Shown piece by piece: positions 180-39,552 of a stretch of 41,816 nt of DNA. The stretch comes from Bacillota bacterium (GTDB lineage: Bacteria > Bacillota > Dethiobacteria > Dethiobacterales > Dethiobacteraceae). The translations under genes were made by a program, and so were the position numbers. Each line of letters starts with the position of its first letter. Position 1 is the first letter of the stretch. Below the pieces are notes generated by a model. The model worked only from the letters and a program-made list of their open reading frames with translations, was not told the origin of the DNA and searched no databases. The DNA lies in assembly GCA_012521405.1 (NCBI GenBank), contig JAAYMK010000018.1, positions 1 to 41,816 of the forward strand. The letters run 5' to 3'.

Positions 180-476
180 TATTAACACCTTAATTGTTTA
201 AAGTGTTTAAACCGAAGAGCAAGAGTAGTAGGAATAACCGCCTGCAGATAGAGAGCCGCTGGGGGTGGAAATGCGGTTGCAGAGTTATTCTGAATGGACT
301 TGCGAGGGAAGCCCGAAATCTGTCGAGAGTAGGCGCTTACGGGGAGCCTGCCCGTTATCAGGGGGATGCATATGATGGTATGCAAAAGTGAGCGGGTGTA
401 GCTATGCACCAATGAGGGTGGTACCGCAGAAGCTTAAGCTTTTGTCCCTATTTTCCGGGACAAAAGCTTTTTTTTC
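180..476 (+). promoter_or_regulatory. T-box leader, tryptophan specific
   Basis: Transcriptional T-box riboswitch that reads uncharged tRNA. Stem I begins near 216 with the AAGAGCAAGAGTAGTA-type segment. The specifier loop contains GAATGGAC at 292-299, giving specifier codon TGG (295-297, Trp). The conserved T-box AATGAGGGTGGTACCGC is at 411-427 and a terminator follows at 436-475. The Trp specifier matches the trp genes downstream. In known T-boxes, uncharged tRNA pairs with the specifier and T-box bulge and stabilises the antiterminator, so the operon would be induced by tryptophan starvation. Confidence 0.93.
436..475 (+). terminator. T-box regulated intrinsic terminator
   Basis: A 13-bp stem (436-448 with 457-469), loop 449-456 and a run of T at 470-475. 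It directly follows the T-box sequence, as expected for the OFF-state hairpin. Confidence 0.9.
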
Positions 477-556
477 TTATGCGGTTAAAGCAAAAAGGGC
501 AGTTTACCGGTTCAAGGATAAAGTAGGAAAAATTTTTCTGCAAAAGGGGTGGGACC

Positions 557-2017
557 GTGATCAAGCCCGGTTACAATGAAATCCGGCAGTTGGCAAAAAA
601 GTATAATATCATTCCCCTTTGTCGGGAAATATACGCCGATATTATTACTCCCATTGGGCTGTTATTGAAAATTGCCCGCAAAAGCAAGAGATTCTATCTT
701 TTTGAAAGTATTGAGGGGGGTGAAAAATGGGCCCGGTATTCTTTTTTAGGTTTTGATCCTGTGGTGCGCATTGTATGTAAAGACAAAAAAATAACTATTG
801 AGGAAAAGCAGGGAAAAAGTATAATCTATTCCTCCGATCCTTTTGCTGAACTGCGGGCATACATGGCAAAATATAAAGCACCTAAACTGGCGGGAATGCC
901 GCCCTTTACTGGAGGCTTGGTGGGGTACTTTGCCTATAGCATGATTGGTTATAGCGAACCGGTTTTAAAACTAAAAAGCAGTGACTTTCCTGATTTTGAT
1001 TTCATGCTTTTTGACAAAGTTATTGTTTATGACCACCTGAAACAAAAAATATTGATTGTGGTAAACCTGCAAACTGATAACCTGGAAAAAAATTATGCAA
1101 AAGCCCTGGAAACCATAGCAGAAATGAGCCGCATGCTCAGGGAGGAATTTTCCCCTCCGCAAGCCGCCGGCTCCTGCCGGCCTAATTTTTTGTGTAATAT
1201 TTCCAAGGAAGAGTACTGTGAGCTGGTGGAAAAAGCTAAAGACTACATCAAAGGCGGCCAAGTTTTTCAGGTTGTAATCTCCAGGCGTTTTGAGGCAGAG
1301 TACACTGACAGTCTTTTAAATGCATATCGCGTTTTAAGGACTCTAAATCCTTCCCCCTATATGGTATTTTGGCAAAATGATGATTTGCAGGTGATAAGTA
1401 CTTCCCCGGAGACATTGATCAGGCTGCAAGACGGTGTACTTACCACCTATCCCATCGCCGGCTCAAGGCCCCGGGGCAAAAATGAAGAGGAAGATAAAGC
1501 GTTGGAGCGGGAATTGTTAAGCGATGTAAAGGAACTGGCGGAACATGATATGCTGGTGGACTTGGCCCGAAACGATTTAAGTAAAATTGCCAAGTACGGC
1601 AGTGTGCGTCTTACCAGCTATAAAAATATTCAGCGCTATGCAAAGGTTATGCATCTTACCTCGGAAGTGGAAGGCAGCATCAGGGACGATTTAGATGCAT
1701 TGGATGCCGTCAAAGCTTTTTTGCCGGCGGGCACTTTATCCGGGTCGCCGAAAATTCGGGCCTGTCAAATCATTGAGGAATTGGAAAAGGAACCAAGGGG
1801 AATTTACGGCGGAGCCATTGGCTATCTAGATTTTACCGGCAATATGGATATCTGTATTGCCATTAGAATGGCCGTAAAAAAAGGCAAGAAAGTTTATGTG
1901 CAAGCCGGGGGTGGAATTGTGGCAGACAGTAAGGCGGAGCAAGAATATGAAGAGTCGGCCAATAAAGCCAGAGCCGTTATGGAAGCAATCATGAATGCCG
2001 GTGAGGTGGATCAATGA
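557..2017 (+). CDS. trpE: Anthranilate synthase component I (TrpE)
   Basis: Converts chorismate plus ammonia to anthranilate, the first committed step of tryptophan synthesis. At 486 aa it has the usual length. The N-terminal domain keeps an LFESIEGGE segment, corresponding to the LLES tryptophan feedback site. The C-terminal chorismate-binding domain shows PIAGSRPRG, DLARNDL, LPAGTLSGSPK and the GGAIGY region. The start is GTG at 557 behind AAAGGGGTGGG. The Trp T-box leader and the downstream trpGDCF genes favour TrpE over PabB. The stop overlaps the start of trpG by four bases, so the two subunits are probably translationally coupled. Because the partner TrpG lacks its catalytic cysteine, this subunit may have to use free ammonia or another glutaminase. 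Confidence 0.95.
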   Translation: MIKPGYNEIRQLAKKYNIIPLCREIYADIITPIGLLLKIARKSKRFYLFESIEGGEKWARYSFLGFDPVVRIVCKDKKITIEEKQGKSIIYSSDPFAELRAYMAKYKAPKLAGMPPFTGGLVGYFAYSMIGYSEPVLKLKSSDFPDFDFMLFDKVIVYDHLKQKILIVVNLQTDNLEKNYAKALETIAEMSRMLREEFSPPQAAGSCRPNFLCNISKEEYCELVEKAKDYIKGGQVFQVVISRRFEAEYTDSLLNAYRVLRTLNPSPYMVFWQNDDLQVISTSPETLIRLQDGVLTTYPIAGSRPRGKNEEEDKALERELLSDVKELAEHDMLVDLARNDLSKIAKYGSVRLTSYKNIQRYAKVMHLTSEVEGSIRDDLDALDAVKAFLPAGTLSGSPKIRACQIIEELEKEPRGIYGGAIGYLDFTGNMDICIAIRMAVKKGKKVYVQAGGGIVADSKAEQEYEESANKARAVMEAIMNAGEVDQ

Positions 2018-2592
2018 TGATTTTAATCATAGACAATTACGATAGTTTTTCCTATAACCTGGCGCAGGTGGCAGGAGCTTTTAAGCCTTCAGTACGGGTT
2101 GTGCGTAATGATGAAGTCACGGCTGAAGAAGTAAAAGATTTGCATCCTTCCCACTTAATTCTCTCCCCGGGACCGGGGCGGCCCGGCATTTGTGAGGATC
2201 TTGTCAGGCTCATGCACAAATTTGTCCCCATTCTAGGGATTAATCTTGGTTGCCAGGTTATCGCCAAAGTTTTTGGCGCGTCCTTAGTACCGGCAAAACG
2301 CTTGCTCCACGGTAAAGCAGGCAGTATTCATATCGCTAACGGGAATCGCATTTTTCAAGGTTTGCCCCCGGTGATTCAGGGGGCCAGATACGATTCCCGC
2401 AGTATCCTGCGAAAAACTTTGCCGGAAAAATTGCTAATCATTGCTGAAGATGAGGAAAGGGAAGTGATGGGAATTAAGCATAAAGATTATGAGCTTTATG
2501 GGTTGCAATTCCATCCCGAGTCCATTTTGACGCCACAGGGGCAGGTTATAATCAACAACTTCTTGCAGATAGGTGGTGGAGAAGATGATTAA
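2014..2592 (+). CDS. trpG: Anthranilate synthase component II (TrpG), catalytic Cys replaced by Asn
   Basis: Class I glutamine amidotransferase subunit of 192 aa that would supply ammonia to TrpE. Family signatures present are IIDNYDSFSYNL at the N-terminus, SPGPGRPG (51-58), a HGKAG segment (99-103) and QFHPES (165-170) with the triad His167 and Glu169. The nucleophile elbow, normally G-x-C-x-G-x-Q, reads G-I-N-L-G-C-Q: Asn77 stands at the cysteine position (codon AAT, 2242-2244) and a cysteine is three residues later (Cys80). The usual RYHSL segment reads RYDSR. The frame is otherwise intact and well conserved. As seen, the protein should not hydrolyse glutamine by the known mechanism. It may be structural or decayed. 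It overlaps trpE by 4 bases and trpD by 8. Confidence 0.9.
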   Translation: MMILIIDNYDSFSYNLAQVAGAFKPSVRVVRNDEVTAEEVKDLHPSHLILSPGPGRPGICEDLVRLMHKFVPILGINLGCQVIAKVFGASLVPAKRLLHGKAGSIHIANGNRIFQGLPPVIQGARYDSRSILRKTLPEKLLIIAEDEEREVMGIKHKDYELYGLQFHPESILTPQGQVIINNFLQIGGGEDD

Positions 2593-3598
2593 GGAAGCCA
2601 TACAAAAACTCTTAAACGGAGAAAATCTGCCTTATGGATTGACGAAGAACGTCATGACGCAAATTATTAATGGGGAAGCCACACAGGCACAAATTGCCTC
2701 CTTTATCACTGCCATGAGGATGAAAGGGGAAACTATCGAGGAAATTACTGCTTGTGCCCAGGTGATGCGGGAAAGCTGTTTGAAACTAAAATATGACGGT
2801 GATGTTTTAGATATTGTGGGTACAGGCGGGGATCAGGCCAATACATTTAATATCTCCACAGTTTCTGCTTTTGTGGTTTCAGCGGCAGGTATCCCGGTAG
2901 CCAAACACGGTAACAGGAGTGTTTCCAGTAAATGCGGCAGTGCAGATGTCTTAGAAGCTCTGGGGGTAAAAATAGATCTCCCGGTAGAAAAAAGTGAAAA
3001 GATTTTGCAGGAAATAGGCATCTGCTTTATGTTTGCCGCCCATTACCATCCTTCCATGAAGTATGCTGCGCCGGTCAGAAAAGAACTGGGCGTGCGGACA
3101 ATTTTCAACATCCTTGGTCCCCTGGCCAGTCCCGCCGCCGCCAAGATACAGCTTTTAGGGGTTTATGATGAAAATTTAGTAGAGCCTTTAGCCCGGGTGC
3201 TTGCCAATTTAGGGGTGAAAAAAGCCATGGTGGTCCATGGCCATGACGGCTTAGATGAAATTTCCTTAACGACAGCTTCCACCGTCTGTGAAGTGAATCA
3301 TGGCAGAATCAACTGCTTCTTTTTAGATCCACGCCAGTTTGGTTTTACTTATTGTCAACATGAAGATTTAAAAGGTAGCGGACCTGAAGAGAATGCCAAA
3401 ATTGCCAGAAGCATTTTAAAGGGCGAAAAAGGACCCAAAAGAGATATTGTGTTGCTCAATTCCGCAGTTTGTCTTTATCTTTTTTATGACAACCTGACTT
3501 TAAGGGAATGTGTACAGCTGGCGGCGGAGATGATTGACAGCGGCAAAGCTCTGGACCAGCTAAACAAATTTATCAAACTCTCCCACCAGGTACATTAA
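2585..3598 (+). CDS. trpD: Anthranilate phosphoribosyltransferase (TrpD)
   Basis: Transfers the phosphoribosyl group of PRPP to anthranilate. The protein is 337 aa from ATG 2585, close to the family norm. This start has GGTGGTGGAG directly upstream and overlaps the end of trpG. The GTG at 2573 in the same frame lies inside that ribosome binding site region. Motifs seen: GTGGDQANTFNIST (PRPP loop), KHGNRSVSSKCGSADVLEALG-type segment, the metal-site region near HDGLDE, and PVRKELGVRTIFNILGPL. All key family elements appear intact. Confidence 0.95.
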   Translation: MIKEAIQKLLNGENLPYGLTKNVMTQIINGEATQAQIASFITAMRMKGETIEEITACAQVMRESCLKLKYDGDVLDIVGTGGDQANTFNISTVSAFVVSAAGIPVAKHGNRSVSSKCGSADVLEALGVKIDLPVEKSEKILQEIGICFMFAAHYHPSMKYAAPVRKELGVRTIFNILGPLASPAAAKIQLLGVYDENLVEPLARVLANLGVKKAMVVHGHDGLDEISLTTASTVCEVNHGRINCFFLDPRQFGFTYCQHEDLKGSGPEENAKIARSILKGEKGPKRDIVLLNSAVCLYLFYDNLTLRECVQLAAEMIDSGKALDQLNKFIKLSHQVH

Positions 3599-3615
3599 GT
3601 AAAGGCGGGGAAAAC

Positions 3616-4404
3616 GTGCTGGATGTTTTAGTAGAATCCACCAGAAAACGTGTAGCGGCAGCCAAAAGGGAAGTCCCCCTGGACAATTTACTTAGACAAG
3701 TATCTGCCCATGAAAAAAGAAAAAACAGGCGAGAAGCTTTTATTTGGGAAAAAGTGTTAAAACAAGCAGGTATCTCTTTTATCTGTGAAGTTAAAAAAGC
3801 CTCTCCGTCCAAAGGCATTATTTCTCCTGATTTTCCCTACCTGGAAATCGCTGCCCAATATGAAAAGGCCGGTGCCCATGCCATCTCCGTGCTGACGGAA
3901 CCGGAATATTTCCTGGGCAACAATCGTTATCTTACGGAGATAAGTGAGTCAGTCAGTATTCCAGTTTTGCGCAAAGATTTTATTATTGATGAATACCAGC
4001 TTTATGAGGCGAAACTGCTTGGTGCGGACGCGGTACTTTTAATTTGTGCCATCCTGGAAGCGGAGGTGCTGAAAAAGTTTTTGCAGCTTTGTGATACATT
4101 AGGGCTTTCGGCACTGGTGGAGGCACATACAGAAGAGGAAATTGCCGCTGCCCTTGCGGCCGGTGCCAGGGTGATCGGGGTAAACAACCGGGATTTAAAA
4201 ACCTTTAACGTTGATGTTGGCCGCTGTCTTGCTTTTAGGGAGCTGGTGCCGGAAGAGGTTGTTTATGTGGCAGAAAGCGGCATCAAGGCGCGCCAGGAAG
4301 TGGAATTGCTGGAGCAGGCGGGAGTAGATGCGGTTTTAATCGGAGAAGCGCTGATGAAAAGTCCGGATAAGGCTGCCATGCTGGCTTACTTAAAGGGCAA
4401 GTAA
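3616..4404 (+). CDS. trpC: Indole-3-glycerol phosphate synthase (TrpC)
   Basis: Closes the indole ring from CdRP. It is a 262-aa single-domain TIM barrel. Motifs are CEVKKASPSKG (lysine and phosphate site), VLTEPEYFLGN, VLRKDFIIDEYQ, GVNNRDLKTF and VAESGI. The start is GTG at 3616 after AAAGGCGGGG, 17 bases past trpD. It is not fused to TrpF, which follows as a separate gene. Confidence 0.95.
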   Translation: MLDVLVESTRKRVAAAKREVPLDNLLRQVSAHEKRKNRREAFIWEKVLKQAGISFICEVKKASPSKGIISPDFPYLEIAAQYEKAGAHAISVLTEPEYFLGNNRYLTEISESVSIPVLRKDFIIDEYQLYEAKLLGADAVLLICAILEAEVLKKFLQLCDTLGLSALVEAHTEEEIAAALAAGARVIGVNNRDLKTFNVDVGRCLAFRELVPEEVVYVAESGIKARQEVELLEQAGVDAVLIGEALMKSPDKAAMLAYLKGK

Positions 4405-4422
4405 TACTCTGGGGCGGGGGAA

Positions 4423-5043
4423 ATGACAAAAATCAAAATTTGCGGTTTAAAAAGTATACAGGATATCTTGGCTGTAAATAAAGTTCTTCCTAATTATATT
4501 GGCTTTGTGTTTGCCGAAAGTTTAAGGCAAATTGATGCCCAAAAGGCGCAAGAGCTGAAAACTTACTTACATCCTGCCATCAAAGCAGTTGGCGTGTTTG
4601 TCAATGAAAAGATGGAGAAGATTATTAAACTCTGCGCTGCCAATGTCATTGACTTGGTGCAATTGCACGGAGACGAAGATGAAGAGTATATCAAGTATCT
4701 GAAAAAACATGTAGGACAAAAAATCATTAAAGCCGTAAGGGTAAAAGACAAAGAATCCGTCAAAAAGGCGCTGGGATTGCCTTGCGATTATTTTTTGTTT
4801 GATACTTACCGGCAAAATACTTACGGCGGTACGGGAAAAACCTTTGACTGGTCGTTACTGCCGGCAATAGAAAAACCGTATTTTCTCGCCGGAGGGATAA
4901 ATGCCGGAAATGTCATGCAGGCCATTAACGCCTGCCGCCCGTACTGTATTGATGTCAGCAGCGGCGTAGAAACACGGGGTCGTAAAGATCCAGAAAAAAT
5001 CAAAAAATTTGTTTCCCTGGTAAGGAAAGCTGCCGTGGATTAG
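4423..5043 (+). CDS. trpF: Phosphoribosylanthranilate isomerase (TrpF)
   Basis: Amadori isomerisation of PRA to CdRP. It has 206 aa. KICGLKS carries the catalytic cysteine, LVQLHGDE and FLLAGGIN-like and DVSSGVE segments follow, and the late aspartate region FDTYRQNTYGGTGKTFDW is conserved. ATG 4423 follows GGGGCGGGGGAA. This is the last gene of the operon: a terminator and convergent genes follow, so trpB and trpA are absent here. Confidence 0.94.
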   Translation: MTKIKICGLKSIQDILAVNKVLPNYIGFVFAESLRQIDAQKAQELKTYLHPAIKAVGVFVNEKMEKIIKLCAANVIDLVQLHGDEDEEYIKYLKKHVGQKIIKAVRVKDKESVKKALGLPCDYFLFDTYRQNTYGGTGKTFDWSLLPAIEKPYFLAGGINAGNVMQAINACRPYCIDVSSGVETRGRKDPEKIKKFVSLVRKAAVD

Positions 5044-12988: not shown

Positions 12989-13063
12989 TCCTCGATAGCT
13001 CAACGGTAGAGCAACCGGCTGTTAACCGGTAGGTTGTAGGTTCGAATCCTACTCGGGGAGCCA
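12989..13063 (+). tRNA. tRNA-Asn (GTT)
   Basis: Full cloverleaf with acceptor TCCTCGA/TCGGGGA, anticodon loop CTGTTAA giving GTT, T-loop GGTTCGAATCC and encoded CCA at 13061-13063. First gene of a four-tRNA cluster. Confidence 0.95.
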
Positions 13064-13064
13064 A

Positions 13065-13140
13065 GGGCCCATAGCTCAACGGTTAGAGCTGCCGGCTCAT
13101 AACCGGTAGGTTCTAGGTTCGAATCCTAGTGGGCCCACCA
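13065..13140 (+). tRNA. tRNA with CAT anticodon, probably Met
   Basis: Acceptor GGGCCCA/TGGGCCC, anticodon loop CTCATAA giving CAT, encoded CCA. A CAT anticodon can mean elongator Met or, if lysidine-modified, Ile2 (AUA). The body does not settle this by eye. It is not initiator-like, because the acceptor starts with a G-C pair. Confidence 0.9.
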
Positions 13141-13153
13141 ACATCACTAATAC

Positions 13154-13228
13154 GGCCCCTTGGTCAAGCGGTTAAGACACCGCCCTTTCACGGCGGTAAC
13201 GCGGGTTCGAGTCCCGCAGGGGTCACCA
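13154..13228 (+). tRNA. tRNA-Glu (TTC)
   Basis: Acceptor GGCCCCT/AGGGGTC, anticodon loop CTTTCAC giving TTC, T-arm GCGGGTTCGAGTCCCGC, encoded CCA. It directly abuts the next tRNA. Confidence 0.95.
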
Positions 13229-13304
13229 GGGCGATTAGCTCAGCTGGGAGAGCGCCTGCCTTACAAGCAGGAAGTCAGTGGTTCGAGCCCACTATCGCCC
13301 ACCA
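13229..13304 (+). tRNA. tRNA-Val (TAC)
   Basis: Acceptor GGGCGAT/ATCGCCC, anticodon loop CTTACAA giving TAC, T-loop GGTTCGAGCCC, encoded CCA. It starts on the base after the CCA of tRNA-Glu, so processing must separate the two. Confidence 0.95.
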
Positions 13305-19555: not shown

Positions 19556-20003
19556 GCAATGCAAAGCAGGTCGGATAGTCGCGGGGTAATGCTTTACTCC
19601 GAGGAAAGTCCGAGCTCCATAGGGCAGGGTGCTGGGTAACGCCCAGTGAGGGTGACCTCAAGGAAAGTGCCACAGAAATTATACCGCAAACCGGAGGTCA
19701 GATGTCAGAGGTCGGTTTACCGGAACTATGTAGGAATCGCTGTTTGGATTTTATCGAGACTGATGCTGACATCTGATCTCCGGTTTGTAAGGGTGAAATG
19801 GTGCGGTAAGAGCGCACCAGCGGTCAGGTGACTGGCCGGCTAGGTAAACCCCACCTGGAGCAAGACCAAATAGGGGAGAGATGACGTTGCCCGCCGATCT
19901 CCCGGGTTAGGTCGCTAGAGGTGTTAGGCAACTAACATCCCAGAGAGATGACTATCGCCCCGGAAGGGGAACAGAACTCGGCTTACAGACCTGCTTTGCA
20001 TAA
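19556..20003 (+). ncRNA. rnpB: RNase P RNA, type A, with expanded P12
   Basis: Catalytic RNA that matures tRNA 5' ends. The ends pair: GCAAAGCAGGTC (19561-19572) with GACCTGCTTTGC (19988-19999). Conserved cores are GAGGAAAGTCCGAGCTCC (19601-19618), CACAGAAAT-ATACCGC before P12, AAGGGTGAAATGGTGCGGTAAGAG after it, GGAGCAAGACCAAATAGGG (type A signature), CAGAACTCGGCTTACAGACC at the 3' end. P12 is unusual: 22-bp arms 19687-19708 and 19766-19787 match with one G-U wobble and enclose a 57-base loop, so the RNA is about 445 nt. Confidence 0.96.
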
Positions 20004-20040: not shown

Positions 20041-20451
20041 GTCTTTTTAGGTATTGTCTATGAAGAGTATTTGAAACTTTGTCTAGTTATCAAGACGGCC
20101 TTTATTTTGTAGGAGTAGATTCCGGTGTGCTCCGGTCTGTGTTTCAGACCTGGGCAATTCCATACCCGGATGAAAAATATCTTGAATTTCTGCTTATTTA
20201 TTAAAACCGCCATTTGTGGCGGTGTTTTTGGAAAATTATTTCATACAAATTTTGTAGGAAAGCATGAGAAAATTAAACAAAATATACAAATATTACAAGT
20301 ACAAAAAAGCAAAATTATGTATAATTATGGTTGTCTTAAAAGCGCAATTATGGTAGATTTAAAGTAAGTTCACGCAATTTTTACATTATTTTGGGGTCTC
20401 TTAAAAAGCGCCGGTCGACCGGTAGCATGAAAATAGGATGGGAGGCTTCAT
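20041..20451 (+). other. Intergenic region with one candidate structured RNA
   Basis: There is no gene in this 410-base stretch. It holds a compact two-part stem at 20121-20170 and an intrinsic terminator at 20206-20229, both described separately. An AT-rich tract with TATAAT at 20320-20325 follows. A perfect palindrome CCGGTCGACCGG sits at 20411-20422, 30 bases before the next start codon, and may be an operator or a leader hairpin. Confidence 0.5.
20121..20229 (+). ncRNA. Candidate small structured RNA with terminator
   Basis: TCCGGTGTG (20121-20129) pairs with CATAC-CCGGA (20161-20170) through one bulged C. Inside it GGTCTG (20134-20139) pairs with CAGACC (20145-20150). A terminator follows: ACCGCC (20206-20211)/GGCGGT (20218-20223) plus T. 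No open frame fits and no known class is recognised. It may instead be a readthrough region of the rnpB transcript. Confidence 0.35.
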
Positions 20452-21996
20452 ATGAGTTCGAATATTTCGAATTTAGAAAAAAAGTCCCTTTATACAGTGG
20501 AGAATACGGCAACAATTTTAATGCAACCGGTTTATAATGAAGCGCAGCGGATTGTTGATTTTAAACTTGTTGATTGTAAAGAGTGTCGCAAATTTATTGG
20601 CGATGGGCAGGTTACACAAAATAGATACTTATCGCAATTATTTTTTCATGACACAGTCTTTTGGCGTAACCTGCTCATTTTTACTAATAACGACTTTAGC
20701 TCTGAAGCAGAAATGGCGGTTAAGCTGCAAGGGAAGAGCTATAAAGCTTTTGTGAAAAAATTTAACCAAAATTACGTGGTCAGGTTATGTGCAGAGGTAG
20801 AAGAATCTGCTTCCCACCTATACGTAAAAGAGAGCAAAGGGAAAACACCTTCTCTTTATCGTGATAAACTGACAGGTTTTTATAACTTCAATTATTTTCA
20901 GGAGATATTGCCCCGGACTTTGGAAAAGCAAAGGCAGCCTCTGGGATTAATTTTACTCACTGTTAACGGGCTGCAGCTTATTTATCAGCTTTTGGGAAAA
21001 GAAACCGGCGATAAGTATTTAAAGTCTGCGGCAGATCTCCTTTTGTCTATAATGGGGAAGAAAACAACAACACTACGTTTGGCAGATGATGAATTGGCCG
21101 TGCTTGTAGCGGCCTCATCTGCTGAAGAAGTAAAAGTACTGGTGCAGAAACTGAGAAACTGCAGCAAGCAAATTAAAGAACCTTTTAAAACATGTTTGTC
21201 TGTTGAGGCGGCCTTCAGCAAAACAGGCAAGCAAAATTTAAATGAGCTTTATGCCATAGCAAAGTATAAATTAAGACAATATAAGCAAAAAAATAGAAAT
21301 CGCCTCCAGGCTGATGTAATAAAATACATCAGAAAATTGATAACTTCTGAATATAACCGTGCTCCGCAGCATTGGGAAAGTTTAGACATGCTGCTGGTTA
21401 AGTTAGGTGTTCTTCTGGGTTTAACGTCAAAGCAGCTGGAAGATTTAAGAATGTTGGCTATCCTGCATGATATCGGTATTGTCAAAGTACCTAAAGAAAT
21501 TGTCTTGAAACCAAAAAAACTTACCATCCAAGAATGGCATCAAATCAAAAAACATTGTGAAGCCGGAGCGCAAATTGTTTATACCATCCCGGAATTTGCT
21601 TCCGTGGCTGAAGCAATTTTATACCACCATGAGCGTTGGGACGGTTGCGGTTATCCCCGGGGTTTAAAGGGAAAGGAAATACCGCTTTTGTCCAGGGTGT
21701 TTGCCGTTGTTGATGCTTTTGATGCCATGACACAGCATAGAGTTTATCGTGAAAAAATTTCACCCTTGGAGGCACTGGCTGAATTGGAGAAATGTGCCGG
21801 CAAGCAGTTTGATCCGGAAATTGTGCTCATGTTCGGCTCTATGATTCGCCGGGAAGAGTTGAGTAAAAGAATGGAAAAGGAGAGAGAAAAATTAAAAGAA
21901 ATTGCCGCCACAAAGGGGGTTAACAGTAAGGAAGCATTGGAACAAAGCAAACTTATTGACCAGATTCATAACGAACTTAACAAATTTAAGTTTTAA
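20452..21996 (+). CDS. Degenerate GGDEF plus HD-GYP signalling protein
   Basis: A 514-aa cytoplasmic protein. The N-terminal 1-125 resembles a PAS-like sensor but is not firmly assigned. A GGDEF-like domain (about 136-280) begins YRDKLTGFYNFNYFQEIL, but its signature GGDEF reads A211-D-D-E-L215, so cyclase activity is doubtful. The HD-GYP domain (about 290-480) has His339-Asp340 in LHDIGIVKVP, YHHERWDGCGYPRG and RVFAVVDAFDAMT, the pattern of cyclic-di-GMP phosphodiesterases. The usual lysine after HDIG is isoleucine. A lysine- and glutamate-rich tail follows. ATG 20452 follows GGGAGGCTTCAT. The degenerate GGDEF may act as a regulatory GTP or c-di-GMP sensor. Confidence 0.88.
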   Translation: MSSNISNLEKKSLYTVENTATILMQPVYNEAQRIVDFKLVDCKECRKFIGDGQVTQNRYLSQLFFHDTVFWRNLLIFTNNDFSSEAEMAVKLQGKSYKAFVKKFNQNYVVRLCAEVEESASHLYVKESKGKTPSLYRDKLTGFYNFNYFQEILPRTLEKQRQPLGLILLTVNGLQLIYQLLGKETGDKYLKSAADLLLSIMGKKTTTLRLADDELAVLVAASSAEEVKVLVQKLRNCSKQIKEPFKTCLSVEAAFSKTGKQNLNELYAIAKYKLRQYKQKNRNRLQADVIKYIRKLITSEYNRAPQHWESLDMLLVKLGVLLGLTSKQLEDLRMLAILHDIGIVKVPKEIVLKPKKLTIQEWHQIKKHCEAGAQIVYTIPEFASVAEAILYHHERWDGCGYPRGLKGKEIPLLSRVFAVVDAFDAMTQHRVYREKISPLEALAELEKCAGKQFDPEIVLMFGSMIRREELSKRMEKEREKLKEIAATKGVNSKEALEQSKLIDQIHNELNKFKF

Positions 21997-22020
21997 TGCT
22001 TTTTTAAGCAGTTTTTTTTT
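21997..22020 (+). terminator. Short terminator after the HD-GYP gene
   Basis: TGCTT (21997-22001) pairs with AAGCA (22006-22010), followed by G and nine T. The stem is short. Confidence 0.6.
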
Positions 22021-22061
22021 GCATAAAATAAGTTAGCGGCTGGTTTTTTGGGGGGAAAATT

Positions 22062-22159
22062 ATGGAGTTTAGCCATTTATTATTGCTGGGTTAGGTATCG
22101 GGTATGCTATAAAAGAATTTTTACTAAAAATAAACTTTGCAAGGATGGTAGAGCCATGA
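22062..22159 (+). pseudogene. Possible small membrane peptide gene with one-base frameshift
   Basis: ATG 22062 behind GGGGGGAAAAT reads MEFSHLLLLG and then stops. If one T is added near 22090-22092, the frame continues as LGIGYAIKEFLLKINFARMVEP and ends in a TGA that overlaps the ATG of the next gene (ATGA). The result would be a short protein of about 32 residues with one hydrophobic segment, translationally coupled to the P-type ATPase. The inference rests on the ribosome binding site, the reading pattern and the overlap. It could be chance. Confidence 0.3.
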
Positions 22160-22884
22160 AACCATTTGCGCAAAATGCTACAGAAGTATTAAAAGCACTG
22201 GCAACAAAGGAAACGGGGTTAACGGAAAAGGAAGCCCGGCTGCGTTTAGAGCATTACGGCAAAAACGTTTTAACACAAGAGCAAAAACAGACATTTACGC
22301 AAAAAATTTGGGCACAAATTAAAGATCCCATGGTTTTAATTCTGATTGCTGCGGCTACAGTTGCCGGACTCTTGGGGGAAATTGCCGATACAGTCATTAT
22401 TTTGGCGGTTGTTTTTCTTAATACGATAGTTGGTCTTGTCCAAGAAAGTAAAGCAGAACAGGCTATAGAAGCTTTAAAGAAAATTAGTGCCGCTCAAGCT
22501 AAAGTCTTACGCCAGGGGCAGGTACAAGTAATTCCGGCAGAGTTGCTTGTACCCGGAGATATCGTCTTGTTGGATGCCGGCGACATGGTTCCTGCCGATT
22601 TACGGCTCATTGAAAGTTCATCCTTACGTATTGAAGAAGCATCTCTCACGGGTGAATCGGTTCCGGCAGAAAAAGATGCGCAAGTTACCTGTGCGGCAGA
22701 TTGCCCCCTGGGAGACCGTTTGAATATGGCCTTTAGTGGCAGTAGTATTGTTTACGGTCGCGGCAAAGGTGTAGTTACCGCCACCGGTATGGCTACCGAA
22801 ATGGGCCGCATTGCCGAACTTATAAGCGGGGTAGAGGAAACGCAAAACCTTATGATCCGGTCCAGGAAGTGGAGTCCCAATTGA
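22156..22884 (+). pseudogene. Calcium P-type ATPase, 5' fragment
   Basis: The N-terminal part of a P2-type (SERCA/PMCA-like) cation ATPase. ATG 22156 starts MKPFAQNATEVLKAL. It has the cation-ATPase N domain (about 1-65), M1-M2 hairpin (VLILIAAATVAGLLGEIADTVIILAVVFLNTIVGLV-type) and an intact actuator domain with SLTGESVPAEKD. The reading is normal to GRIAELISGVEETQ (about 22845). It then runs out of frame into sequence that in another frame reads YDPVQEVESQLIF, and stops at 22884. M3-M4, the DKTGT phosphorylation site and most of the nucleotide-binding domain are missing, roughly 270 residues against family length. Confidence 0.9.
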
Positions 22885-23996
22885 TTTTCGTCGGTTTGGT
22901 GGGGATGATGGATCCGCCTCGCCCTGAAGCTTATGAAGCCGTAAGCAAAAGTAAATCTGCCGGTATTGTGCCCGTCATGATTACCGGCGACCATAAGGAT
23001 ACTGCTGTTGCCATTGCCAAGGATTTAGGCATGATTGCTTCAGAAGAGGAAGCCCTAAGCGGGCATGAACTTGACAAGCTATCGGAAGAAGAATTTGCCG
23101 CTGTCCTGGAGCAATACAAAGTTTATGCCCGGGTAAGTCCGGAACATAAGGTGAGAATTGTCAAGGCATGGAAAAACCGTGATAAAGTTGTTGCCATGAC
23201 CGGTGACGGAGTCAATGACGCTCCTGCACTGAAAATTGCCGATATTGGTATTAGCATGGGTATCATCGGTACAGATGTGGCAAAAGATGTTTCCGATATG
23301 CTTTTGGCAGACGATAATTTTGCCACCATTGTGAATGCAGTGGAAGAAGGCCGCAAGATCTATAATAATGTGCGCAAAGCAGTACAGTTTTTACTTTCTA
23401 CCAATATGAGCGAAGTACTTTCTTTATTTGTGGCCACGCTGGTTCTGCCGGCCGGTACGCGTTTTTTAAGTCCCGTTCATATTTTGTGGATTAATTTGGT
23501 TTCAGACAGCATTCCGGCCATAGGTTTAGGGGTGGATCCGGCACATTCCCGTTTAATGGCTGAACCGCCGCGGGATACACGCAAAAGTTTTTTTGCCGAC
23601 GGGCTTGGCTTCAATATTTTTTATCAGGGCTTTCTTATTGCCTGTTTTACGCTGCTTTCCCATTATCTGGGTAGTTTAGTCTCCCCGCAAATCGGTACCA
23701 CCATGGCTTTCGTCACTTTATCCGCGTCGCAGTTTGTGCATGCAATTAATATTAAGCAAGGCAAAGATACTGTGTTTTCCCTGCGGACTTTAAATAACCC
23801 GGTTATAATTATAGGAAATATCTTACTTTTTTTCTTGACGGTGTTAGTGGTGCAGGTGCCTACTTTTGCCGCCTGGTTTAAATTAACGCCGCTTTCGTTA
23901 CAGCAATGGCTTTATGCCCTGGTTTTTTCGGTGGCCATTACACCGGTTGTGGAAATCGTCAAAGCTGTGCAGCGGGCAGCTGAACGTGCCACATAA
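22869..23996 (+). pseudogene. Calcium P-type ATPase, 3' fragment
   Basis: The C-terminal part of the same ATPase in the next frame. Family-like reading begins with YDPVQEVESQ at about 22855 and continues FVGLVGMMDPPRPEA, then VMITGDHKDTAVAIA and AMTGDGVNDAPALKIADIGISMG (phosphorylation-domain hinge motifs). M5-M10 follow, including LSTNMSEVLSLF and ILWINLVSDSIPA typical of calcium pumps. An in-frame ATG at 22872 exists, but the product would lack the catalytic Asp, so no pump function is expected. The junction with the 5' fragment indicates an internal deletion plus frameshift. Confidence 0.9.
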
Positions 23997-24009
23997 ATTT
24001 TAAGCTTTT

Positions 24010-24037
24010 TAGTTCCTTTCCGGGAACTATTTTTTTT
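24010..24037 (+). terminator. Terminator after the ATPase pseudogene
   Basis: TAGTTCC (24010-24016) pairs with GGAACTA (24023-24029), followed by eight T. Confidence 0.88.
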
Positions 24038-24200
24038 GCCGGCAAAAGCTAACATCGGCGTTTTTTTAAGTAAAACAGCAAAAAGGTTAAAATTTGACAG
24101 CTTAAGCGAAAAAATACAATTTTAAAAGCAAAAAGCAGGAAAAAATCGACATCAAGCGAAGTACTATAGAAGATGAGTTTAGCAGTTTGAGGAGGAGTTT

Positions 24201-25712
24201 ATGACGGATATTTTCATACTTGCGGCAGTTTTACTTGTATTGTTGCTAAATATTATCCTGCTTTTGAAAAATTTCGGTGCTGGTGGAGTAAAGCAAGCAC
24301 TGGCAGATTTGGAAAAAATGACGGAGCGCAATCAAAAGCTGATCAGTGACGGTTTAACCGGTTTTCGTGAGGAAATAGCCACCAATGCCAGGGAAAACCG
24401 CTTGGAATTAAGTCAAACACTGAAGGCGGTGGGTGATTCCCTCTCGAAACAAGTGGCGGAAATGGCCATGCTTTTAAAAACGCATTTAGATCTTCTTATC
24501 CGCAGCAATAATGAGAAGCTGGACGGTATACGTGCCGTTATGGAAGACAGGTTAACCAAGCTGCAGGAACAGTTAAATCAAGATGCCGGGCAAAACCGGG
24601 CAGAATTGGTGAGGGCTTTAAAATCTTTTGCAGAAAGTTTTCGCCTCAGTGTGGCTGAATTTAATGAGCACCAGCAGCAAAAATTTACCCTTCTCTCAGC
24701 ACAATTGGAAAAATTGATTACTTCCAGTGAAGATAAATTAAATAAAATGCGGGACACTTTGGAGGCAAAATTGGCAAGCCTGCAGCAGGACAATGCAGAT
24801 AAATTGGAAAAGATTCGCCTTACTGTGGATGAAAAGCTGCAAAGCACGCTGGAAAAAAGATTGGGAGAATCTTTTCACCAGGTTAGCCAGAGACTGGAAC
24901 AGGTACATCGTGGTTTGGGAGAAATGCAGGCTTTGGCCAGCGGTGTTGGTGATCTGAAAAAAGCTTTGGTGAACGTGAAGGTGCGCGGTACACTGGGTGA
25001 ACTCCAGCTGGAAAATATTTTGGAGCAGATTTTTGCTCCCACACAGTATGAAAAAAATGTGGCGGTGGTGCCGCAAGCCCGGGAGCGCGTGGAATTTGCT
25101 GTGAAATTGCCGGGTAAAGATGATGAGCATCCAGTTTTATTACCTATTGACTCCAAATTTCCTTTAGAAGATTATCACCGTTTATTGGATGCTTATGAAA
25201 ATGCGGCGGTGGAGCAAATAGAAGCTTGTGCCAAAAAGCTGGAAGCCAGTATTAAAAGATGTGCCAAAGATATTAAAGAAAAGTATATCCGCCCGCCTTA
25301 TACCACTGATTTTGCCATAATGTTTCTAGCTTTTGAAGGTTTGTATGCAGAAGTTTTACGGCGCAACGGTTTGTTTGAAACCTTAATGCGTGAGTACAAA
25401 GTGGCAGTGACTGGACCCACCACCTTGGCGGCTTTTTTGACGAGCCTGCAAATGGGATTTAAGACCTTGACCATTGAGAAACGCTCCAGTGAAGTCTGGG
25501 AACTTTTAGGGACTGTAAAGGCCGAGTTTAGCAATTTTGGGGCTTTGCTGGAAAAAACAAAACGAAAACTGCAGGAGGCCAGCGACACCATTGACGGCGC
25601 TTCCCGTAAAAGTCGTACCATTGAACGAAAACTGAAAAAGGTACAGGAGCTGCCTGCAATTTCGCCGGAAAAGTTGGAAGCGGATGTAACTATCGATGAT
25701 GACAATGATTAA
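24201..25712 (+). CDS. rmuC: RmuC-family protein
   Basis: A 503-aa protein with an N-terminal membrane anchor (about 4-24, FILAAVLLVLLLNIILLL), a long coiled coil (about 30-250) and the conserved RmuC nuclease-like domain. The domain shows KVRGTLGELQLENILEQIF, VLLPIDSKFPLEDYHRLL, YIRPPYTTDFAIMFLAFEGLYAEVLRR and GPTTLAAFLTSLQMGFKTL. RmuC limits inversion-type rearrangements in E. coli; its biochemistry is poorly known. ATG 24201 follows GAGGAGGAG. It lies 28 bases before the HD-domain gene and probably forms an operon with it. Confidence 0.93.
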   Translation: MTDIFILAAVLLVLLLNIILLLKNFGAGGVKQALADLEKMTERNQKLISDGLTGFREEIATNARENRLELSQTLKAVGDSLSKQVAEMAMLLKTHLDLLIRSNNEKLDGIRAVMEDRLTKLQEQLNQDAGQNRAELVRALKSFAESFRLSVAEFNEHQQQKFTLLSAQLEKLITSSEDKLNKMRDTLEAKLASLQQDNADKLEKIRLTVDEKLQSTLEKRLGESFHQVSQRLEQVHRGLGEMQALASGVGDLKKALVNVKVRGTLGELQLENILEQIFAPTQYEKNVAVVPQARERVEFAVKLPGKDDEHPVLLPIDSKFPLEDYHRLLDAYENAAVEQIEACAKKLEASIKRCAKDIKEKYIRPPYTTDFAIMFLAFEGLYAEVLRRNGLFETLMREYKVAVTGPTTLAAFLTSLQMGFKTLTIEKRSSEVWELLGTVKAEFSNFGALLEKTKRKLQEASDTIDGASRKSRTIERKLKKVQELPAISPEKLEADVTIDDDND

Positions 25713-25740
25713 AGGTAAAAGAAAATAAGGAGAGAAAGAA

Positions 25741-26940
25741 ATGATTACGAAAGAATTATTGCTGCTGTTGTTTGAAGCGGCCAGCATCCAGCGCTGGAAT
25801 GATCACAACAGACCGCATAAAGGTTTTACAGAGTTGGATAAACAGGCACATAAAATGATTTATGCCTTTCTTTTGGCCAAATTTGAAGAAACTGACCGCG
25901 GAGTTACCATAGATTGGCGCAAACTGCTGGAAGGCGGCATTTTTGAGTTTTTGCACCGGATTATGCTAACAGATATTAAACCACCTATTTTTCATCAATT
26001 AATGGCGGAAAAGGGTGAACTCTTAAACCAGTGGGTTTTAACGGAATTGGAAGATGCCCTTAAGGGAGTGAAAGATAATTTTTACGAAAAATTTACCGCC
26101 TATTTGTTTCAACCGGAGTACAGTGCTTTGGAAAAAGATATTTTAAAAGCTTCCCATTATTTGGCTACAAACTGGGAATTTAAACTTGTCTACCATCTTA
26201 ATGCCGATATATACGGTTTGGAGGAAACGAAAAATAAAATTGAAGATGAAATAGAAGATCATTACCATTTGGCCGGAGTGCAAAAATTGCTTTTGGGTAA
26301 AAAGACCAGCCATTTTATGGATTTAGTGGGACAGTTGCGTTTTCAGCAGCGCTGGGCGCAAACACCCCGCCTGCCGGAGACTTCAGTCTTGGGACATATG
26401 CTGATAGTTTTTCTGCTGGCTTATTTTGCCACTACAGAAATAGAGCCCTGTACGCAGCGTTTGGTCAATAACTGCCTGGCCGGCCTCTTTCACGATTTGC
26501 CTGAAGTGCTGACGCGGGATATTGTTTCTCCTGTGAAACGGGCGGTGGCGGGGCTGGACGAGGTAATTAAAGAAATTGAAAAGCGGCAGGTACAGGAGAA
26601 ATTATTACCTTTACTGCCGGAAGCTTGGCATAACCAGTTGCGTTATTATACTGAAGATGAATTTGCCAATAAAATTATTAAAGCTGGTAAAGTAAAAATC
26701 GTGCCCTCGGGAGCCATCAATGCCCTTTATAATCAAGACGAATATAGTCCCTTGGATGGAGAGTTAATTCGTGTTTGTGATCATTTTGCTGCTTTTATGG
26801 AAGCATATCTTTCCCTGATCCACGGTGTACGTACGCAAGCTTTGCTGGAAGGCTATCAAAAACTTTATGCGCAATACCAGGCTAAAACCGTGGCAGATTA
26901 TGATTTCTCCCGTTGGTTTGAATATTTTAAACTGGATTAA
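25741..26940 (+). CDS. HD-domain phosphohydrolase (YfbR-like)
   Basis: A 399-aa protein with a split HD-type metal site: WNDHNRPHKGFTELDKQAHK near the N-terminus, LGHMLIVFLLAYF in the middle and LFHDLPEVLTRDIVSPVK with the His-Asp pair, then LIRVCDHFAAFMEAYLS near the end. These match a Firmicute family annotated as predicted HD-superfamily hydrolases related to 5'-nucleotidase YfbR. The substrate is unknown. ATG 25741 follows AAGGAGAG. Confidence 0.82.
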   Translation: MITKELLLLLFEAASIQRWNDHNRPHKGFTELDKQAHKMIYAFLLAKFEETDRGVTIDWRKLLEGGIFEFLHRIMLTDIKPPIFHQLMAEKGELLNQWVLTELEDALKGVKDNFYEKFTAYLFQPEYSALEKDILKASHYLATNWEFKLVYHLNADIYGLEETKNKIEDEIEDHYHLAGVQKLLLGKKTSHFMDLVGQLRFQQRWAQTPRLPETSVLGHMLIVFLLAYFATTEIEPCTQRLVNNCLAGLFHDLPEVLTRDIVSPVKRAVAGLDEVIKEIEKRQVQEKLLPLLPEAWHNQLRYYTEDEFANKIIKAGKVKIVPSGAINALYNQDEYSPLDGELIRVCDHFAAFMEAYLSLIHGVRTQALLEGYQKLYAQYQAKTVADYDFSRWFEYFKLD

Positions 26941-36077: not shown

Positions 36078-37037
36078 GTGGAGTACAAAAATGTAACAGG
36101 ATGCATCTATGACATTCAAGGTTATGCCGTACACGACGGGCCGGGAATTCGCACCACAGTTTATACTAAAGGCTGCCCTTTGCGCTGCCTCTGGTGCCAT
36201 AGCCCGGAATCGCAGCACCAGGAGTTTGAACTGGGTTATTTACCGGTAAAATGCATCGGCGCAGACATCTGCCAAAACGCATGTATCAATGCCTGCCCGG
36301 AAAAGGCAATTACAAGGGGGGAACCTGTAGAGGCCACTGATAAGCCGGGACTGATGCAAAAAGCAAAAATTGATCGCTCCCGCTGCACAAATTGTTTAAA
36401 GTGTACAGAAGTATGTATTACGAAGGCACTCTACTCTTCCGGTTGGGAGACAACAGTTGACGAGGTATATGAACGTGTAATGAAAGATCGGGGCTTCTTT
36501 CAGAACGGCGGGGGGATAACAATTTCAGGCGGGGAGGCGATGGCGCAGTTTGCATTCACCTATAATTTAGCGAAAAAATTGAAGGACAGCGGCATCCATA
36601 TTTGCCTTGATACTTCAGGTTATGCGGCAACGGAATTGTACGCAAAGATTTTGCCGTATATTGACTTATTTTTATATGACATCAAGCATATGGATTCTCT
36701 AATGCATAAAAAACTAACAGGAGTTGGCAATGAGCTGATCCTGAAAAATGCCCGCTTTTTGGCGGAACACAAAGCTGCGCTGCAAATCCGCGTCCCTGTT
36801 ATTCCCAGGTTAAATGATAAGGAAACAAATTTGCGGCAGACGGCGGAGTTTTGTGTAACACTGGGAAGCGCGGTGAAATTGGTTCAGCTCTTGCCGTATC
36901 ACAAGACGGGGCGTACCAAGTATGACCGCTTGGGATGGCGTTATAAATTGCCCCATCTTGAACCTCCCGATGATGATTTTATGCACAAAGTTCTCGAGCT
37001 GTTTCAAAGTTATGGGCTTAATTGCCAATTACATTAA
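36078..37037 (+). CDS. Glycyl radical enzyme activating enzyme
   Basis: Radical SAM activase of 319 aa that installs the glycyl radical on the enzyme encoded next. Radical SAM cluster Cys33-x3-Cys37-x2-Cys40 (GCPLRCLWCH). A ferredoxin-like insert (about 55-118) carries Cys59/65/69/73 and Cys103/106/109/113, enough for two extra [4Fe-4S] clusters. Such inserts occur in activases of the diol dehydratase, CutC and decarboxylase groups, and are absent from PflA. GGGITISGGEAMAQ is the conserved SAM-binding segment. The start is GTG 36078 after AAGGCAGGT. The order activase then enzyme suggests co-expression. Confidence 0.93.
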   Translation: MEYKNVTGCIYDIQGYAVHDGPGIRTTVYTKGCPLRCLWCHSPESQHQEFELGYLPVKCIGADICQNACINACPEKAITRGEPVEATDKPGLMQKAKIDRSRCTNCLKCTEVCITKALYSSGWETTVDEVYERVMKDRGFFQNGGGITISGGEAMAQFAFTYNLAKKLKDSGIHICLDTSGYAATELYAKILPYIDLFLYDIKHMDSLMHKKLTGVGNELILKNARFLAEHKAALQIRVPVIPRLNDKETNLRQTAEFCVTLGSAVKLVQLLPYHKTGRTKYDRLGWRYKLPHLEPPDDDFMHKVLELFQSYGLNCQLH

Positions 37038-37074
37038 AAAAATGCGCCTGGCCAGGTGCGGGATGGAGGTTTTT

Positions 37075-39552
37075 ATGACAACAACCTTTATGTCAAAATT
37101 TGATTTGCCAATTTCTGAGCGGATTAAAGCACTTAAGGAAAAACGGGAACGAATTAACAAGGATATGCGTTTAAACTTTGAACGCAATCGGATTATCACC
37201 GAGTATTACAAGAACCATGAAAAAGAGTACCCGATATTAAAGCGCGCCGGTTTCCTCTATGAGTGGTGTGCAACACGGGAGATAAATATTGATGATGACG
37301 ATATTTTCCTCGGTGACGGCGGACCGCGTTGCCGTACGGTGCACTTTGATATTGAGCAAACCAGCCAAACCTGGATCCGTAGCTGTTTTGGCGATACTGA
37401 TGAGCGGTTCCGTGCCGCCTGGCAGGTGCCGGGCAGTGTCTGGGTAGACGATGAAGATCGCCAGTGGATTCTAGAAGCTGCTGATTACTGGAAAGATAAA
37501 GATATAGCAGCCACAGCCCGCGGTTTGTTCCCGCCGGAGTTCTTTGAAAGGATGGGGCCCTTTGTCGAGCATTTGGCCGGCTCATACCCGGGTCATTTCA
37601 ACCCCAATTACGAACGGGCAGTGACGGTAGGGTTTGGCGCAGTGCGCCGGACCGCCTTGGAAAAGCTGGAGGAAATACGGAAACATACCACAGCCGATAA
37701 TGTGCGCAGTGAATTATTTTACCGCGCCATCATTAAGGTTTGCGACGGCATGATCCTCATGAGCAAGCGTTACGCCGAGGCGTGCCGTAAAAAAGCGGAA
37801 ACGGCACCGACACCGGAGCGTCGTGCAGAACTTTTGCGCATGGCTGATTCCTGCGACTGGATTATTGAAAACCCCGCCAGGAACTTGTGGGAAGCTCTCC
37901 AAACCATGCTCTTCTACCAGTACCTGCTCATTGCCGACGGTACGCACTGGGCGGATTCTCCGGGCCTTATTGACAGTTTCCTGGGGCCTATTTTGGAAAA
38001 CGATCTCAAAAACGGTACCTTGACCCCTGAACAGGCGCAGGAATTGTTTGATGCTTATTTGCTGCAAGTGGGCAACCAAATTATTATGTTCCCTAAACCC
38101 ACAAACGATCAGCTCATTGAAGCTCATGAAAACGGGAAAACATTTTTTGACCTGCAGGGCGGTGCACAAAATATTGCCGCCGGCAGCCTCATAACCATTG
38201 GCGGCCAGAAAGCCGACGGTTCCGGCGACTACAATCTGGCCACTGAAATGATGCTCCTGTCATATTACCGGCTGCGCGTAGCCGAGCCGAGCTTGGCGCT
38301 GCGGATCAATAAACATACCCCTGATCGTATTTGGGAGTTGGCCATTGCCTGCAGTATCCGTTCGGGAGGTATGCCCCAGTTCAATAATGACGATGTCATT
38401 ATCCAGACCATGCTGGATAAGGGCGTACCGCTGGAGGACGCCAGGCGCTATGCTATTTTCGGCTGTGTGGAACCGGCCGTTAGCGGTAAAGAATGGTCCA
38501 TGGCAGCCAACTGCGGCGGTTTTGGCGGCGGTGCCAGCCTGGTGGATATTCTCCAATATGTCATTTACGGTAATGTCAATCCCATGACGGGCGCCAAAGG
38601 AATGCTGCCATGTAAAAAACTTTATGAATATGAGTCCTTTGAGGAACTGCAGGCCGAGTTTGAGCGGCAAATCAAACACTATCTTGATTACCAGGCAAGA
38701 CTATATCATTTTGCCGCCCTGGTCTTTAACCATGAGTGGCCGTGTCTCTCTGCTTCGGTGATGACGGAAGGCTGCATCGAATCAGGTAAGGATGTTACCT
38801 GGGGCGGTGCCAAGTACAACGGTATGGGGTCCATGTTTAGCGCCGTAGGTTCGGTGGCAGACAGCCTGATGACAATCAAAAAACTTTGCTTTGACGACAA
38901 AACTGTTTCCACAAAAGAGCTCTATGATGCCCTGTGCGCCAATTGGGAAGGTTATGAACTGCTGCGGCAACGTATCTTAAACGAAGTACCCTTCTACGGC
39001 AACGATCTCGATGAGCCCGATGCCATCATGCAATGGTTTACCAACTTCTATGCAGACTATTATAATTCGCGTCCGGGAGTTAATAACGGCACCAATAACT
39101 GCGGCGCCCTGGATCTTTATTGGGTGGCCGCCGGTAAAAGGGCTTGGGCCACACCGGACGGCAGAAAAGCAGGAGAGCCGCTGTCACATTCAAGTGACCC
39201 GCGTCAAAGCGCTGTGAAAAACGGGCCCTTGGCTTATGTGAAGAGTGTGGCTAAACTGCCGTGGGATAAAATGCGCTGTGGCGGAGCCATTAATGTGCGC
39301 CTTGATGCCAATTCCGTCCGGAGTGAAGATGCCATCTCCAAGGTGCGGAAACTGATTGAAGCGTACTTTGCCATGGGGGGAATCCAGTTCCACTTCACGG
39401 TGGCGGATACAGAAGTTTTGCGCGCAGCCCAGAAAAACCCTGAAGATTACAAAGACTTAATTGTGCGCATTGCCGGCTTCTCCGCTTACTTCACACACCT
39501 GCCCTTTGACATGCAGGAAGACTATATTAACAGAGTTGAGCTTGGAGTATAA
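37075..39552 (+). CDS. Glycyl radical enzyme of unknown substrate
   Basis: An 825-aa glycyl radical enzyme from ATG 37075, which follows GGAGGTTTTT; the frame runs back to 36922 inside the activase gene. The thiyl site is FGC464VE466P, the C-x-E motif of diol dehydratases, CutC and related lyases, and not the Cys-Cys of pyruvate formate-lyase. The glycyl loop is RIAG801FSAYF near the C-terminus. The region GGIQFHFTVAD before it corresponds to the usual GG-x-x-x-QFNV. The PFL-type N-terminal region and WWASNG-like contacts are replaced. There are no microcompartment, transporter or dehydrogenase genes adjacent, so the substrate cannot be read from context. Candidates include dehydration, C-N, C-S or decarboxylation chemistry. 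Confidence 0.93.
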   Translation: MTTTFMSKFDLPISERIKALKEKRERINKDMRLNFERNRIITEYYKNHEKEYPILKRAGFLYEWCATREINIDDDDIFLGDGGPRCRTVHFDIEQTSQTWIRSCFGDTDERFRAAWQVPGSVWVDDEDRQWILEAADYWKDKDIAATARGLFPPEFFERMGPFVEHLAGSYPGHFNPNYERAVTVGFGAVRRTALEKLEEIRKHTTADNVRSELFYRAIIKVCDGMILMSKRYAEACRKKAETAPTPERRAELLRMADSCDWIIENPARNLWEALQTMLFYQYLLIADGTHWADSPGLIDSFLGPILENDLKNGTLTPEQAQELFDAYLLQVGNQIIMFPKPTNDQLIEAHENGKTFFDLQGGAQNIAAGSLITIGGQKADGSGDYNLATEMMLLSYYRLRVAEPSLALRINKHTPDRIWELAIACSIRSGGMPQFNNDDVIIQTMLDKGVPLEDARRYAIFGCVEPAVSGKEWSMAANCGGFGGGASLVDILQYVIYGNVNPMTGAKGMLPCKKLYEYESFEELQAEFERQIKHYLDYQARLYHFAALVFNHEWPCLSASVMTEGCIESGKDVTWGGAKYNGMGSMFSAVGSVADSLMTIKKLCFDDKTVSTKELYDALCANWEGYELLRQRILNEVPFYGNDLDEPDAIMQWFTNFYADYYNSRPGVNNGTNNCGALDLYWVAAGKRAWATPDGRKAGEPLSHSSDPRQSAVKNGPLAYVKSVAKLPWDKMRCGGAINVRLDANSVRSEDAISKVRKLIEAYFAMGGIQFHFTVADTEVLRAAQKNPEDYKDLIVRIAGFSAYFTHLPFDMQEDYINRVELGV

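Follow-up and report, generated by a model that had tools for sequence, protein, structure and literature searches.

Among P-type pumps of solved structure, the nearest to the intact orthologue of the gene discussed here, from another species of the same genus, is LMCA1 (lmo0841), a Ca2+-ATPase of Listeria (PDB 6zhf and 9euq): residues 7-871 of the orthologue align with 6zhf, with an E-value of 3.7e-217. According to an excerpt of PMC11977196, the phosphorylated residue of LMCA1 is Asp334, and P-type pumps require both the aspartate and the nucleotide-binding (N) domain. Two profiles, TIGR01116 and TIGR01522, describe the P2A (SERCA/PMR1-type) Ca2+-ATPases, and the copy studied here matches each of them in two pieces, one at each end of the profile with a gap between. 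Judged by its sequence, the gene is a type IIA (SERCA/LMCA1-like) Ca2+-ATPase, which agrees with the calcium pump named in the first-pass annotation. Compared with LMCA1, our copy is without the stretch that corresponds to residues 233-493 of the intact orthologue (M3, M4, the catalytic aspartate and the N domain), and what is left is split between two frames. Since the catalytic aspartate (Asp334 in LMCA1) is lost, the product would be unable to pump.

The window, i.e. the whole stretch of 41 816 nucleotides that was analysed, is contig C163 of a 2.11-Mb genome, which is distributed over 165 contigs and 97% complete. Most comparisons were with G001, which represents a second species; no further genome of this genus was among those searched. 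We think it probable that the window records a recent and private loss of function: of the three type IIA Ca2+-ATPase genes of this genome, one would have suffered an internal deletion in a single step. Part of this reading is that the assembly is correct at the junction, which we infer. The features concerned are the following:

20452..21996, + strand: upstream neighbour, GGDEF/HD-GYP-like by eye, found at the same place in G001.
22156..22884, + strand: 5' remnant of the type IIA Ca2+-ATPase gene, with M1, M2 and the A domain with TGES; 242 codons to a premature TGA.
22840..22847, + strand: deletion junction ACGCAAAA; 772 nt net absent by comparison with the G001 orthologue.
22845..23996, + strand: 3' remnant, with the last N-domain residues, the hinge, the remaining P domain with TGDGVND, and M5-M10; no DKTGT.
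24201..25712, + strand: downstream neighbour, RmuC-like by eye, found at the same place in G001, with its frame intact.

The pump gene at this locus is not one continuous reading frame. The frame of the 5' remnant runs from the ATG at 22156 to the TGA at 22882-22884 and is native to about 22839-22846; M1-M2 and the A domain occupy 22156-22839, and the TGES loop of the latter is present as LTGESVP. In Pfam terms this part consists of Cation_ATPase_N followed by E1-E2 ATPase (PF00122), the latter represented by profile positions 3-108 of 181 only. After ...LISGVEE (22839), 14 further codons are read before the stop, which lies 43 nt beyond the last left-hand homology to G001. The 3' remnant is one base off from this frame; it begins KPYDPVQEVESQLIF... 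at 22845 (its translation from that position is also given as KPYDPVQEVESQLIFVGLVGMMDPPRPE...) and continues to its stop at 23996, with the motif TGDGVND and with matches to HAD hydrolase (the end of the P domain) and to Cation_ATPase_C; this remnant includes M5-M10. Neither frame contains any further stop, and the two overlap around the junction. A degenerate coding pattern for DKTGT had no match across the whole window, and the PEGLP ion-binding motif of M4 and the N domain are absent as well, both lying inside the missing segment.

The size of the loss comes out the same by two routes. The alignment with G001 breaks between window positions 22840 and 22845, where 776 nt in G001 face 4 nt in the window, and mapping by codons sets residues 233-493 of the G001 protein (783 nt) against 11 nt; the net loss is 772 nt in both cases, although the exact breakpoint is ambiguous within the A-run at the junction. 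As 772 is not a multiple of three, the frame is shifted. The lost segment covers M3, M4 with PEGLP (G001 residue 291), DKTGT (G001 residue 334) and, as far as ...AAYKT, the N domain. The first-pass annotation had described a passage from the A domain straight into the end of the N domain with a change of frame, the disappearance of M3-M4, DKTGT and most of the N domain, and some 0.8 kb missing. All of this is borne out by the alignment, and 'most of the N domain' falls a little short, since the domain keeps no more than its last few residues. Relocation of the segment was considered and rejected: when 461 nt of it were searched against the own genome, nothing but the paralogues on contigs C95 and C146 rose above noise.

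Comparison with relatives had been suggested as a check. At this locus (contig C120), G001 has an intact gene for 874 amino acids, whose flanks are collinear with window positions 20303-22840 and 22845-26722, the sole large break between these blocks being the junction. Conservation of the upstream neighbour at the same place indicates that the locus is orthologous. In a search of 38 genomes, the frames of the best four relatives (72-87% identity) are open over 874, 876, 898 and 893 codons. A degenerate pattern for the junction matched exactly in the own genome only, among the 39 genomes searched; with 3 mismatches allowed it matched in 4 others, in unrelated sequence, and a reversed-pattern control matched in 7 of the 39. 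Going by these sequences, the deletion is private to this genome among those searched. One of the relatives deserves separate mention. The G008 orthologue (L043, on contig C110 of that genome) has one base fewer than those of G014 and G017 in the M2 region, which puts its N-terminus out of frame and leaves its frame only partly native; this is either an error of the draft or another lesion of this pump gene, distinct from the deletion.

The loss also looks recent, as had been supposed from the intact codon structure of both parts. Relative to G001, dN/dS is 0.07 in the N part (227 codons) and 0.105 in the C part (383 codons), rough values given that synonymous sites are fairly saturated. Amino-acid changes were polarised at positions that are identical in more distant orthologues, namely G014 and G017 in the N part and these two plus G008 in the C part. 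The window branch carries 8 changes in the N part and 10 in the C part, against 5 and 14 on the G001 branch, i.e. 18 versus 19 overall, so that no relaxed evolution is visible. From the upper confidence limit of this ratio, and under a rough model of our own, at most about 7-11% of the window branch would have been unconstrained. The lack of excess amino-acid change points to a loss that is young or, with equal compatibility, to one that is absent from the organism.

This last possibility leads to the most serious alternative, an assembly artefact or a strain mosaic, in which the organism would carry an intact gene, or the assembler would have picked a deletion variant from a minor strain, and 0.77 kb would be missing from the contig only. 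The assembly is a draft in 165 pieces, and the base missing from G008 is a reminder that small faults may occur in such drafts; the way in which both remnants evolve, like an intact gene, is predicted equally well by an artefact. According to an excerpt of PMC11017572, errors of assembly account for many of the pseudogenes in draft genomes, and as such assembly-made pseudogenes are common we keep a minor but real share of our belief for this explanation. Three observations weigh against it. The join is clean and flanked on either side by full homology; the missing segment, as far as the 461 nt searched can tell, is on no other contig; and the intact G001 gene contains no direct repeat of at least 14 nt, so that collapse of a repeat by the assembler is not expected and was rejected as a simple cause, an argument that applies to simple collapse and leaves chimeric joining and minor strains untouched. 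On balance we consider an artefact or mosaic unlikely.

If, as we prefer to think, the deletion is real, a single event of about 772 bp net would have shifted the frame and taken M3 and M4 together with the aspartate that is phosphorylated and almost the whole N domain. Short A-rich stretches at the two ends may have given rise to it, through slippage or illegitimate recombination, and what remains would be a pseudogene of recent origin, predicted from its sequence to be incapable of pumping. The junction GCAAAACC sits in an A-run, and this makes short-homology illegitimate recombination or slippage plausible, if unproven. A look for short direct repeats at the deletion ends in the intact homologue had been suggested. 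A 7-nt word, ATAAAAC, is common to both ends of the missing segment in G001 and has only these two copies in the gene. This is weak evidence, because 142 of 4609 random pairs of places share words of this length. Moreover, simple recombination between the two copies would remove 774 nt, in frame, versus the 772 observed, and was rejected. An 8-nt word, CCGTTGCA, is also common to both end regions in G001, and nothing is concluded from it. G001 is not the ancestor of the window copy, and the ends that it offers for such comparisons may differ from the true ones.

A much weaker alternative is that both halves are still made, by reinitiation or frameshifting, and now serve some new purpose other than catalysis, for instance modulation of the two paralogous pumps. 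The absence of more stops in the two frames, their overlap around the junction and the lack of accelerated change would all suit this idea, but the last point is explained by recency. By eye, there is no evident ribosome-binding site at the normal distance from the GTG at 22869, which is the first usable start in the second frame. Furthermore, none of the other genomes among the 39 searched shows this arrangement, and the aspartate and the N domain, which are needed according to the excerpt of PMC11977196, are lost. We therefore judge it very improbable. Its most specific form, a live split gene whose membrane-only remnant (M5-M10 and half of the P domain) has newly arisen as a non-catalytic partner and tunes the two paralogous Ca2+ pumps, is more improbable still, and we give it hardly any credit.

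Returning to the loss of function that we favour, two further complete genes of the type are present in the own genome, on C95 (918 amino acids) and C146 (940 amino acids), both carrying TGES, PEGLP, DKTGT and GDGVND; their counterparts in G001 have 902 and 921 amino acids. With two intact paralogues remaining, loss of the third copy is plausibly tolerated.

Other parts of the window were also inspected. At 206-5043, a T-box leader is followed by what look by eye like trpE, trpG, trpD, trpC and trpF, and neither trpB nor trpA comes directly after trpF in this run. TrpA had no match in the own genome or in G001, G007, G008 and G010, and was absent from 10 of 20 genomes; the trpB-like gene of the own genome is cut off by the end of contig C31, so that a contig gap is possible. 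A cluster of four tRNAs (Asn, Met, Glu, Val) lies at 12989-13304, and a bacterial RNase P RNA of class A at 19563-20001 (326 bits). At 36078-39552, again by eye, a glycyl-radical-enzyme activase overlaps the frame of a glycyl radical enzyme (36922-39552, 876 amino acids), the start of which (36922), since it overlaps the activase, is probably placed too early.

The case documents the recent disappearance of one calcium pump that was redundant, and has little reach beyond this genome. If the deletion is real at the level of the species, the lineage can do without the third pump. It also calls for caution in annotation, as the two adjacent 'calcium ATPase' fragments found here are one broken gene. 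What we describe is ordinary pseudogene formation. Like recent bacterial pseudogenes formed by internal deletion, the window copy has one clean frameshifting deletion and no other lesions, keeps intact paralogues in the same genome and is confined to one genome; set beside such pseudogenes, it has no feature that we found distinctive.
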